A DNA stretch of 64,000 nucleotides from Halorubellus sp. JP-L1. GTDB lineage: Archaea; Halobacteriota; Halobacteria; Halobacteriales; Natrialbaceae. Where the stretch lies: assembly GCF_011440375.1 (NCBI RefSeq), contig NZ_JAAOIR010000001.1, forward strand, positions 186,001 through 250,000. Reading direction: 5' to 3'. The notes below the pieces were generated by a model that saw only the letters and a program-made list of their open reading frames with translations, did not search any database and was not told the DNA's origin. Positions 6,008 through 9,370 of this stretch are shown here, one piece after another. How positions within the stretch are numbered: position 1 is the first letter of the stretch; every line of letters begins with the position of its first letter. The translations under genes were made by a program, and so were the position numbers.

Positions 6008-6030
6008 GCGTTGGAACTCGCCCGGACGTG

Positions 6031-6040
6031 CCTTATAAGT
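6031..6040 (-). promoter_or_regulatory. TATA box of the thiolase/DUF35 operon
   Basis: ACTTATAAGG on the minus strand, about 28 nt before the ATG at 6007. It lies at the left border of the probable replication origin. Confidence 0.7.
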
Positions 6041-6060
6041 CCGTGTTGGTGCAGGGTCCC

Positions 6061-6148
6061 GTCCACTCGAAATGGGGGGATGACGGCGGTCTCCGGGGAA
6101 GTGGACGTCGCCCGCCTTCGTGCAGATGACTCGAAACGACCCCACCGG
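6061..6148 (+). repeat. ORB-like elements, plus orientation, left border
   Basis: GTCCACTCGAAATGGGGGG at 6061-6079 has the ORB core followed directly by a G-string. TGACTCGAAACGACCCCACC at 6127-6146 is a second, weaker copy. Confidence 0.65.
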
Positions 6149-6441
6149 AGTTGCGAGTGAAACGTCGGTCCCGGCGCCGACGTGCAGTCGAAGGAAGGGT
6201 TATCCGGAGTGGTTGCGACGTACCACCCCCACCACCGCTGCGAGTGGAGGACCGTGATGGTTCGGCGTGGGGTGCGTGGATCGGTCGATGGCACGGTCGC
6301 GTCTGGCCGAGTGGAGAGTGATCGGGTGGGGGAGTGATCGGGTGGGGGAGTGATCGGGTGGGGGGGTAAGCGGGTGGGGGAGTGAGCGGGTGGGGAGAGT
6401 GAGAGAGTGGGGAGAGAGACACCACCGTTGCGAGTGAAGCG
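6142..6441 (-). repeat. Three ORB-like elements, minus orientation
   Basis: Read on the minus strand: 6142-6164 (GTTTCACTCGCAACTCCGG), 6226-6250 (TCCACTCGCAGCGGTGGTGG plus further G) and 6421-6441 (GCTTCACTCGCAACGGTGGT). They share TTCACTCGCAACGGTGG with small changes. Confidence 0.72.
6317..6412 (+). repeat. 16-nt G-rich tandem array in the origin
   Basis: About six units of AGTGATCGGGTGGGGG, the first two identical (6317-6332, 6333-6348) and later ones drifting. Each ends in a run of 4-7 G, so one strand carries six G-tracts. Confidence 0.85.
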
Positions 6442-6503
6442 TGGATAGGGTGGGGCAGGGTCCGTGGGTCGTGGCCGCGGCGGGGTTCTCGTCGAAATGA
6501 CGT

Positions 6504-6930
6504 CTTCACCTGCAACGGTGGTGGGGGGTTCGGAGGAGACGGCCGTCAGAAGCCCTCTCGAACCTGATTCTACTACCCGACGCTGTTCGCGCGCTGGCCA
6601 GCCTATCGAACGTGTCACCGCTTCACTCGAAACACCGGTGTGCTCGCACGTGACCCCTAGCCCAACACCCGCTTCACACGAAACGACGGTGTCTCTCACC
6701 TCCCTCTGCGAACGACTGACGAACCAACTCGACCCCTTACACACGTCATCTTCACCTCAATTCCCATCTCAAATACGTTGCATCTCAAATACGTTGTATT
6801 CCTAGTCTACTACTACAACTAGCTAGACAATCAACGACAACGACGAACCAAACTGTGCTAGCTAATGACGACCAAAGTACCGCGGAGGGGGCGGCTGTCT
6901 GGCCCAGTTCGGGTCTTCACTCGAATCACG
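6504..6930 (+). repeat. Four ORB-like elements, plus orientation
   Basis: 6504-6528 (TTCACCTGCAACGGTGGTGG plus GGGG), 6621-6642 (CTTCACTCGAAACACCGGTG), 6672-6693 (CTTCACACGAAACGACGGTG) and 6914-6930 (CTTCACTCGAATCACGTG). The last is followed by an AATCACGTG direct repeat. Confidence 0.72.
6735..6870. other. AT-rich stretch, candidate duplex-unwinding element
   Basis: This stretch is clearly AT-richer than the flanking DNA and lies between two ORB-like elements. It includes a perfect 16-nt tandem duplication CATCTCAAATACGTTG at 6765-6780 and 6781-6796, and two GCTAGC/CTAGCTAG micro-palindromes. Confidence 0.6.
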
Positions 6931-6983
6931 TGAATCACGTGAAAAGGCGGTCGTTAAATAGGGGGAGTGCTACCGTCCGAGTC

Positions 6984-8210
6984 ATGCGTCGGTTCGAGCG
7001 GAAGCGGACGATATTCGCCAACAAGGACGCCCTCCGCGAGAGCTATCAGCCTGACCGCATCCAGGAGCGCGACGAAGAGATCGACGCGTACATGGACGCC
7101 CTCCAGCCCGTCATCGACGGCTGGGAGCCCAACAACATCTTCCTCTACGGGAACACCGGCGTCGGGAAGACCGCCGTCACCGAGTACCTCCTCGACCGAC
7201 TCCGCGAGGACGCGAGCGGCTACGACGACATCGACCTCTCCGTCCTCACCCTCAACTGCAAACCGCTCTCCTCGTCGTACCAGGTCGCCGTTGAGCTCGT
7301 GAACGAACTTCGGCCCGACGGCGGCGAGATATCCACGACCGGCTACCCCCAGCAGACGGTGTTCAACAAACTCTACGAGGAGATCGACGACGTCGGCGGC
7401 ACCGTCCTCCTCGTCCTCGACGAGATCGACTCGATCGGCGAGAAGGACGAATTGCTGTACGAGCTCCCGCGAGCGCGCTCGAAGGGCGACCTGGAGGAGG
7501 CGAAGGTCGGCATCATCGGCATCTCGAACGACTTCAAGTTCCGCGATCAGCTCGACCCACGAGTGCAGGACACGCTCTGCGAGCGCGAACTCCAGTTCCC
7601 GCCGTACAACGCCCAGGAGCTCTCGAACATCCTCAGTTCGCGTGCGGAGATCGCGCTCCGCGAGGACGTCTACGACGACGCCGTCGTCCGCCTGTGCGCG
7701 GCACTCGCCGCGAAGGACCGCGGGAGTGCGCGGCAGGCACTGGACCTCCTCCTGCTCGCCGGCGAGCAAGCACAGAACAGCGGCGACGACTTCCTCGAGG
7801 AACGCCACGTCGAGCAGGCCCAGCACGAACTCGAACGCGAACGCGTCGAGGAGGGCATTCGACAGCTCACTCAGCACGGCCACCTCGCGCTGCTCGCCGT
7901 CGTCTCTCTCGCTCGCGCCGGCCGCACGCCCGAGCGCTCGCGGAACATCTACGACCGCTACCTCGACGTCTGCGACGCGATGGGCGTCGACAGTCTCGCG
8001 CAGCGGAGCGTCCACAATCACCTCTCGGACCTCCGGATGCTCGGCATCCTCACCGCTCGCGAGAACCGGTCGGGGAGCCGCGGGAACTTCTACAGTTACG
8101 AACTCGACGTCCCACTCGAGTCCGCGAGCCGCGCACTCGAGGACGAACTCGGAATCGAGGACGGCCTCGAGCAGACCACGCAGGTCGCACTCGGCGACCA
8201 CGGCGCCTGA
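6984..8210 (+). CDS. orc1: Orc1/Cdc6 replication initiator
   Basis: 408 residues. AAA+ ATPase motifs: Walker A GNTGVGKT (residues about 52-59), Walker B TVLLVLDEID and sensor-1 GIISND-type GIIGISND, followed by a C-terminal winged helix (RSVHNHLSDLRMLGILTARENRSG). The protein binds ORB repeats and recruits the MCM helicase. The start at 6984 (MRRFERKRTIFANK) is chosen over an in-frame ATG further upstream because a TTAAATA element (6954-6960) lies about 27 nt before it. The upstream ORB-like cluster suggests that it controls the adjacent origin. Confidence 0.95.
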   Translation: MRRFERKRTIFANKDALRESYQPDRIQERDEEIDAYMDALQPVIDGWEPNNIFLYGNTGVGKTAVTEYLLDRLREDASGYDDIDLSVLTLNCKPLSSSYQVAVELVNELRPDGGEISTTGYPQQTVFNKLYEEIDDVGGTVLLVLDEIDSIGEKDELLYELPRARSKGDLEEAKVGIIGISNDFKFRDQLDPRVQDTLCERELQFPPYNAQELSNILSSRAEIALREDVYDDAVVRLCAALAAKDRGSARQALDLLLLAGEQAQNSGDDFLEERHVEQAQHELERERVEEGIRQLTQHGHLALLAVVSLARAGRTPERSRNIYDRYLDVCDAMGVDSLAQRSVHNHLSDLRMLGILTARENRSGSRGNFYSYELDVPLESASRALEDELGIEDGLEQTTQVALGDHGA

Positions 8211-8290: not shown

Positions 8291-9202
8291 ATGACACAGC
8301 GATTTCTCGTCTTCGGGGACCATCACGGCGACACGGAATCGCTCCGGCGACTCCTCGACGACGTCGAGGGCGAGACGTTCGACTTCGCCGTCCACGTCGG
8401 CGACTTCACGAACGCGGTACGGACGGACCGGCCGACTGCGGCCCAGCAGCTCGAAGCGGTCGAACCGCACCTCGAAGCCATCGCCGAACACGCCCGTCAC
8501 GGCCTCGTGTGGGTGTACGGGAACCGCGATCGCTTCGGTGACTTCGAGTACGATCTGGACGTCGGCACGCGAATTCCGGAGGAGGGCTGCGTCTCGGTCG
8601 GCGGGCAGCGGTTCACGAACTCGATCTCCGCCGTCGAGTCCGACGTGGTACTCGTCACGCACATGGAGCGGTGGCGGCTCGTCGATCACTTCGACGGCCG
8701 CGCGCACTTCTGTGGGAACACCCACCTCGGCCGGCACGTCGACCGACGCCTCAACTCGGCGTTCCTCCAGTACACGAACCCGGAGACGGGCGAACAGCGC
8801 TTCGGCGGGTACTTCGTCGTCGACGTCGACGACGCACCACCGTTCGACGTCGAGATGCGAGAGATCGATCACCTCGACCGGATCGAGTGCGACGAGCACG
8901 ACGAACGCGGCGTCCAGTACCAGGCCGCGTTCGACGGCTGCACGTACTGCGCCGAGCCTCGCATCCTCATGCGGGAGATGGCCGCGTCCGCGTTCTACGG
9001 CATCACCCGTGGAGCGGAAGGGGCTACAGTCGAGGTTGACGCGCTCGTCGACGCAGCAGTCGGCCTCTGGGACGACCCACCGGACGGGTTCCGAACGGAG
9101 TTCCGCGCGTACCTCGAGGAGGTCGAGTCGGACCGGTACGCGCCGCTCGCGCTCGGCGACGACGGCGGCCTCGTGCTCGCTGCGGAGAGCTACGCGTACT
9201 GA
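8291..9202 (+). CDS. Calcineurin-like metallophosphoesterase
   Basis: 303 residues. The N-terminal half has the two-metal phosphoesterase motifs in order: GDHHGD (usually GDxHG), HVGDFTN, GNRDRFG (in place of GNHD), VTHME and GNTHLGRH. The GNHD His is replaced by Arg. The C-terminal third is an uncharacterised extension with CTYCAEPRI. The substrate is unknown. The start is supported by a TTTACTA element at about 8260-8266. It follows orc1 in the same direction with 80 nt between them, but its own promoter suggests separate transcription. Confidence 0.8.
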   Translation: MTQRFLVFGDHHGDTESLRRLLDDVEGETFDFAVHVGDFTNAVRTDRPTAAQQLEAVEPHLEAIAEHARHGLVWVYGNRDRFGDFEYDLDVGTRIPEEGCVSVGGQRFTNSISAVESDVVLVTHMERWRLVDHFDGRAHFCGNTHLGRHVDRRLNSAFLQYTNPETGEQRFGGYFVVDVDDAPPFDVEMREIDHLDRIECDEHDERGVQYQAAFDGCTYCAEPRILMREMAASAFYGITRGAEGATVEVDALVDAAVGLWDDPPDGFRTEFRAYLEEVESDRYAPLALGDDGGLVLAAESYAY

Positions 9203-9370
9203 CGGGCTCCAACGGGACTCGCCGTCGGGCGATCCGGCAGCGACGCACCCACCACTCTTTCACGTGAACGGCTCGTCGGCTCCGGAGGCTGACGGACCGT
9301 CCCGCGAGGATCTCTCACAGACCCAGATCGTGGCGACCGAAAGAAGACGACCGACCGCCATTGCGTTCGC

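Follow-up and report, generated by a model that had tools for sequence, protein, structure and literature searches.

Haloarchaeal origins adjacent to orc/cdc6 genes carry inverted ORBs that are specific to the linked initiator and lie upstream of its gene (Wu et al. 2012, PMC3528665). In Haloarcula hispanica, a downstream ORB array (oriC2D) genetically restrains oriC2, likely by titrating Cdc6E (Wu et al. 2014, PMC3936714), and some orc-adjacent origins of Haloferax mediterranei are dormant (PMC4595724). How archaea avoid double firing of an origin is poorly understood. To our knowledge, they have neither the bacterial SeqA/Hda/datA set nor the eukaryotic CDK licensing. In bacteria, initiator-binding sites off the origin (datA, DARS and DnaA-box clusters) can tune initiation, and parS sites are scattered around oriC.

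We analysed a stretch of 64,000 nucleotides (the window) on contig C1 of Halorubellus sp. JP-L1. A 975-bp intergenic region runs from a leftward gene (start near 6008) to orc1 (6984-8210), with six related elements inside. The locus shares with the described orc/cdc6-adjacent origins (PMC3528665) the upstream intergenic region, the inverted ORBs and an AT-rich stretch nearby, but differs from them in having a G-run at only half of the boxes, the AT-rich stretch outside the array, and a 3+3 arrangement of boxes. We read 6009-6983 as a replication origin served by the adjacent Orc1, with satellite boxes elsewhere titrating Orc1, and give this reading a probability of roughly 0.7. The features of the region, with scores from a matrix (PWM) of the box family, are the following.

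6134..6164, minus strand: ORB L1, outer left; PWM 10.1; the sister species Halorubellus salinus (H. salinus) has an aligned box
6221..6251, minus strand: ORB L2; PWM 13.0; the aligned H. salinus box scores 36.9
6313..6412, plus strand: G-rich tandem repeat in which a 16-17 bp unit (GGGGAGTGATCGGGTG) occurs about six times, from sequence repetition
6411..6441, minus strand: ORB L3, inner left, closest to the family consensus; PWM 29.5; conserved with the adjoining GGGGAGAGAGACACCAC
6502..6532, plus strand: ORB R1, inner right, followed by GGGGGG; PWM 21.6; conserved
6619..6649, plus strand: ORB R2, first of a tandem pair with 51 bp spacing; PWM 12.1; a diverged box in relatives
6670..6700, plus strand: ORB R3, second of the tandem pair; PWM 15.0; near-identical in H. 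salinus, spacer included
6740..6866, no strand: AT-rich, CTAG-rich stretch, candidate unwinding element, from stability and CTAG counts
6913..6963, plus strand: orc1 promoter element, in which diverged ORB half-sites adjoin the TATA box TTAAATA; near-invariant in H. salinus
6984..8210, plus strand: orc1/cdc6 initiator gene (P0001), 408 aa; TIGR02928, E=4e-136

The matrix was trained on boxes that precede orc1 orthologues in other genera. Since boxes of Halorubellus and Haloarchaeobius were left out, the test of the array is free of circularity. Seven sites in the 64-kb window scored at least 10, namely the six ORBs of the array and a box at 9241-9271 (26.4), and the next best site scored 2.0. 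In a background of 20 Mb of order-3 Markov-simulated sequence, about 3 sites per 3.76 Mb exceeded 10 and the maximum was 18.7. An inverted arrangement takes at least two opposed ORBs; here three left boxes oppose three right boxes, and the intergenic region that bears them directly adjoins orc1/cdc6. The preliminary description had listed elements beside orc1 near 6142, 6226 and 6421 (leftward) and 6504, 6621 and 6672 (rightward), and all of these were recovered as ORBs (PWM 10.1-29.5). Its total of about nine was too high, and its list was at the same time incomplete, as the solo ORB at 9241-9271 had been missed. The copy at 6061 scored -2.9 and has no counterpart kept in H. salinus, and the rightward element reported at 6914 does consist of diverged ORB half-sites (6913-6963) but is not counted as an ORB, leaving six ORBs and one diverged promoter element (~6913-6963). 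A G-string was said to follow several elements; the G-run is present after the boxes at 6142, 6226 and 6504, but not at the other three or in most family relatives. Those three boxes are followed by GTGTCTCTC or GTGTGCTCG, and relatives mostly have GTGTGTSTCT at that place. The AT-rich stretch described ahead of orc1 is real and among the least stable parts of the window, but it lies outside the inverted array.

Comparison of the two Halorubellus species showed that the spacers have diverged, while the boxes, the block formed by R2, its spacer and R3, and the promoter element are kept. Apart from the promoter element, this block (6618-6697) is the best-conserved portion of the intergenic region against H. 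salinus. In relatives, the counterpart of R2 is a diverged box (GCTTTAGTTGAAA...) situated 51-52 bp ahead of the next ORB.

The Orc1 encoded in the window has Cdc6 lid and winged-helix domains. It falls in a 27-row clade (support 100/99), apart from the universal Orc1 (contig C5 of the same genome) and from other paralogues. The nearest relative of the genome is H. salinus, whose Orc1 is 97-98% identical. The clade is patchy, with hits in 11 of 61 family genomes at E<=1e-150. Its members reside on plasmids (for example Haloarcula marismortui pNG500, Haloterrigena turkmenica pHTUR04 and Haloplanus aerogenes pJCM16430-01) and also on large contigs. On the 41-kb pJCM16430-01 the orthologue is the sole relative of the window Orc1 found there, so the family can probably run a replicon. 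Contig C1 (1.70 Mb) opens with a 16S rRNA sequence and also carries rps3ae, and is therefore chromosomal. In genome G024, the orthologue (C3:2,889,624) and the canonical oriC1 (C3:730,077) are on one 3.67-Mb contig. Upstream of orc1, chromosomal and plasmid-borne relatives have the same box in both orientations, TTCACTTGYAACAGTGGTGTGTSTCTGT being common to 20-odd of them. Because the initiator belongs to a patchy, often plasmid-borne clade with a common ORB, a second, plasmid-related chromosomal origin is the best reading, and judging from these sequences the array is probably active as such. The locus would thus illustrate how a plasmid-related origin-initiator pair is held as a second chromosomal origin.

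In most relatives, orc1 is preceded by one minus box at about 290 bp and one plus box at about 90 bp; the diverged box comes 51-52 bp before the plus box, and an element at -60 extends into the TATA box. The conservation proposed beforehand as a check is borne out, in that the repeats and their arrangement are kept in about 20 relatives. Upstream arrays are enlarged in Halorubellus and Haloarchaeobius, and 7-8 upstream boxes occur in Haloarchaeobius and Haladaptatus relatives; the high number of boxes in the window, which had seemed unusual, is therefore not unique. The likeness to the known design of haloarchaeal origins holds for the Orc1-linked inverted ORBs, but not for oriC1, from which the locus differs in initiator, ORB sequence and position of the AT-rich stretch: oriC1 combines an initiator of the universal Orc1 clade with TTCCA...GAAACGAAGGGG boxes, and the window locus has neither. 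Like oriC2-cdc6E of H. hispanica (PMC3936714), it would be a second chromosomal origin of non-oriC1 type. Downstream arrays resembling oriC2D are present in many relatives of the locus, and most have 1-6 ORBs directly 3' of orc1 (Haloarchaeobius only a weak match there). In Halorubellus, by contrast with oriC2D, no array directly follows the initiator gene in the window; it is reduced to one box past an intervening gene, and three more boxes are 99-114 kb away. In Haloarchaeobius, partial matches to the ORB model, in its 3' half, are also clustered at G055 C5:195-198 kb, G036 C34:90-92 kb and G009 C38:72 kb, and these clusters possibly represent another origin family.

An exact whole-genome scan with TTCACNYGNANNNNNGGTG gave ten matches, compared with one for the reversed-pattern control. 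Five are in the array, one is inside a gene (C2:850941, PWM 10.4), and the remaining four are solo boxes.

C1:79,096, -114 kb from orc1: solo box between EamA and HTH genes; PWM 27.2
C1:93,892, -99 kb from orc1: solo box between rps3ae and cupredoxin genes; PWM 30.0
C1:195,241 (window 9241..9271), minus strand, +2.3 kb from orc1: solo box between a metallophosphoesterase gene (8291-9202, plus strand) and a FabG-type SDR gene (ends 9371, minus strand); PWM 26.4
C1:302,074, +109 kb from orc1: solo box between hypothetical and NUDIX genes; PWM 35.6

All four lie between convergent genes. In H. salinus, each of the four has a counterpart at the corresponding place, with unchanged orientation (C5:44,204; 60,599; 166,096; 262,477 of its assembly), and the H. 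salinus box between orc1 and the same SDR gene scored 22.7. The cores are identical between the species at 19/19, 18/19, 14/19 and 18/19 positions. The 60-bp flanks are no more alike than shuffled sequences, apart from the flank upstream of the rps3ae box. The sequence of the third box is not the same in the two species, but both versions score as an ORB. Five further matches to the pattern were found elsewhere in H. salinus, four without a counterpart in the window genome and one corresponding to the match inside a gene, which shows that the loose pattern has a certain background in H. salinus. That there are few other sites is a result of the exact-pattern scan; the model search, in which limited candidates were scored, missed one H. 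salinus satellite. In Haloarchaeobius the gene order at rps3ae is the same and no box is present there, and satellites of the window ORB type have therefore so far been seen only in Halorubellus. In the open-access literature searched, no description of solitary ORBs tens of kb from archaeal origins was found, and subscription papers may have one. The in-gene match, an identical 19-nt ORB-like sequence in a cupin-like gene of the window genome (G000, C2:850941) and of G001 (C6:60530; PWM 10.4), probably reflects coding conservation. The metallophosphoesterase gene (8291-9202) between orc1 and the downstream box is absent there in H. salinus, and was thus gained in the window species or lost in H. 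salinus.

The canonical origin has satellites as well. In the window genome, oriC1 (C5:115042-115336) consists of two inverted copies of TTCCACCCGAAACGAAGGGG that precede the universal Orc1 gene by about 1.3 kb, and further canonical boxes lie at -49.5, -3.3, +1.3, +4.7 and +15.2 kb. The canonical ORB was searched in 61 genomes with TTCCANNNGAAACNAAGGGG at up to 1 mismatch and was found in all of them, with 2-9 copies each, the reversed control giving 3 matches in total. Distances were tabulated for 25 genomes among the matches listed, 22 with a recognisable oriC1 pair and three without. Among the matches listed, these 22 genomes have 81 further canonical boxes on the oriC1 contig, of which 13 are within 2 kb, 17 at 2-10 kb, 21 at 10-50 kb, 23 at 50-150 kb and 7 at 150-300 kb; none is beyond 300 kb on that contig in the 22 genomes among the matches listed, with several contigs exceeding 3.5 Mb. 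The same genomes have 7 boxes on other contigs, again among the matches listed. G011 and G056, of one genus, have a box roughly 430-575 kb away from the main cluster; the confinement of canonical satellites is therefore strong, not absolute. A canonical box beside an nmd3-like gene, 84-116 kb from oriC1, is syntenic across genera. Two further placements recur in four genera each: an inverted canonical pair, 4-6 kb from oriC1, in the linker-encoding part of the PolD small subunit gene, and a canonical ORB, 15-39 kb from oriC1, that follows the tRNA-Gln(CTG) gene at a distance of about 40-60 bp. The names PolD small subunit and nmd3-like are what we take these proteins to be from their sequences. 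We think it rather probable that haloarchaeal chromosomes have an origin-centred domain of solitary, selectively maintained initiator boxes reaching to about 100-240 kb, with two independent initiator-ORB systems per cell, each having satellites around its own origin, and that these satellites serve to control initiation or to organise the region of the origin. The origin alone is an expanded, rearranged member of the known orc/cdc6-adjacent type, and the satellites are the new part.

The locus might instead be a dormant relic of an integrated plasmid, whose boxes bind Orc1 and do not fire while oriC1 works. The plasmid-common, patchy clade of the initiator, the displaced AT-rich stretch and the dormant orc-adjacent origins of Haloferax mediterranei (PMC4595724) all speak for it. 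However, Haloarchaeobius has the same gene order around the locus, with a DNA identity of about 82%, and against H. salinus the boxes, the R2-R3 block and the promoter element are kept while spacers diverge, which argues that the locus is under selection and makes a relic unlikely. Chance matches or terminator-like sequences would account for the satellites with scarcely any plausibility. Although the rps3ae satellite follows a terminator-like stem, and the loose exact pattern has a few unsupported matches such as C2:850941 inside a gene, the four satellites scored 26-36 against the simulated 20-Mb maximum of 18.7, and their cores (14-19 of 19 identical to H. salinus) stand out from flanks at the shuffled level, except upstream of the rps3ae box.

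It is also rather improbable that Orc1 uses the extra boxes as operators to regulate the genes near them. Some canonical satellites are near gene starts (beside the nmd3-like gene in G024 and G008) and the orc1 promoter itself contains a diverged box, but all 4 satellites of the window origin lie between convergent genes, away from promoters, and one set of canonical satellites is inside the PolD small subunit coding sequence. The serious rival to titration is a parS-like organisation of the origin domain, with the satellites as anchors at which Orc1 or an Orc1-associated protein folds or segregates that domain. Canonical satellites lie within about 240 kb of oriC1 (in genomes among the matches listed) in the manner of bacterial parS, and both kinds of site are short, conserved, protein-binding and dispersed over the part of the chromosome near the origin. 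The satellites differ from parS in that the sequence is an ORB, the partner is presumed to be Orc1 and a segregation role is hypothetical; since such a role is not known for archaeal Orc1, we hold this explanation as possible but tentative.

An Orc1-dependent origin remains the best reading of the inverted boxes and linked initiator, in line with established archaeal biology (PMC3528665, PMC3936714, PMC7776575). Cumulative GC skew over C1:1-449 kb was weak and was given no weight; the minimum fell near 265 kb, which is about 70 kb away from the position of the origin (near 192 kb). In the model that we propose, Orc1 monomers would bind the six ORBs, and the DNA would be unwound locally, most likely on the CTAG-rich, AT-rich side next to R2-R3. 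The opposed left and right boxes would then allow the loading of two MCM helicases, one for each direction. By binding the diverged box over its own TATA box, Orc1 could limit its own synthesis. Additional Orc1 would be held by the extra ORBs, of which one is 2.3 kb downstream and the other three are at distances of 99-114 kb. Satellites would be copied soon after firing, so that binding sites would double at once and re-initiation would be damped, as has been proposed for the oriC2D array of H. hispanica. Because sites near the origin double soon after firing, and oriC2D is a precedent, we favour initiator titration as the leading explanation of the satellites; it is also the weakest step, since single distant boxes would add little binding capacity. 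The bacterial datA, DARS and DnaA-box clusters (compare PMC5742627, PMC9640692) likewise place initiator boxes away from the origin, but the boxes here would bind Orc1/Cdc6 instead of DnaA, and they are single boxes with a putative function. The conserved scattered boxes are concrete, deletable sites at which initiator counting by titration can be set against organisation of the origin region.

The AT-rich stretch (6740-6866) lies in the interval that separates R3 from the promoter element, with all six ORBs on its left, and the gap of the innermost inverted pair (L3-R1) is GC-rich. Of the 3192 windows of 60 bp that make up the 64-kb window, those at 6760-6780 rank among the 6 with the lowest stability. 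CTAG is very rare in the genome; 4 of the 17 copies in the window, for which the zero-order expectation is 185, are within this stretch, and most relatives have clusters of CTAG ahead of orc1. At the position of the promoter element, a candidate autoregulatory site, relatives have TTCACTTGAAACAGATG...TTTTATAT. The G-rich tandem repeat (6313-6412) was considered as a core origin element and set aside; it is not kept as a repeat in H. salinus and is thus probably not essential. Placed between two left ORBs, it is specific to the window species and could form a G-quadruplex. The AT-rich stretch also contains a perfect 16-bp tandem (direct) duplication, CATCTCAAATACGTTG, at 6765-6796.
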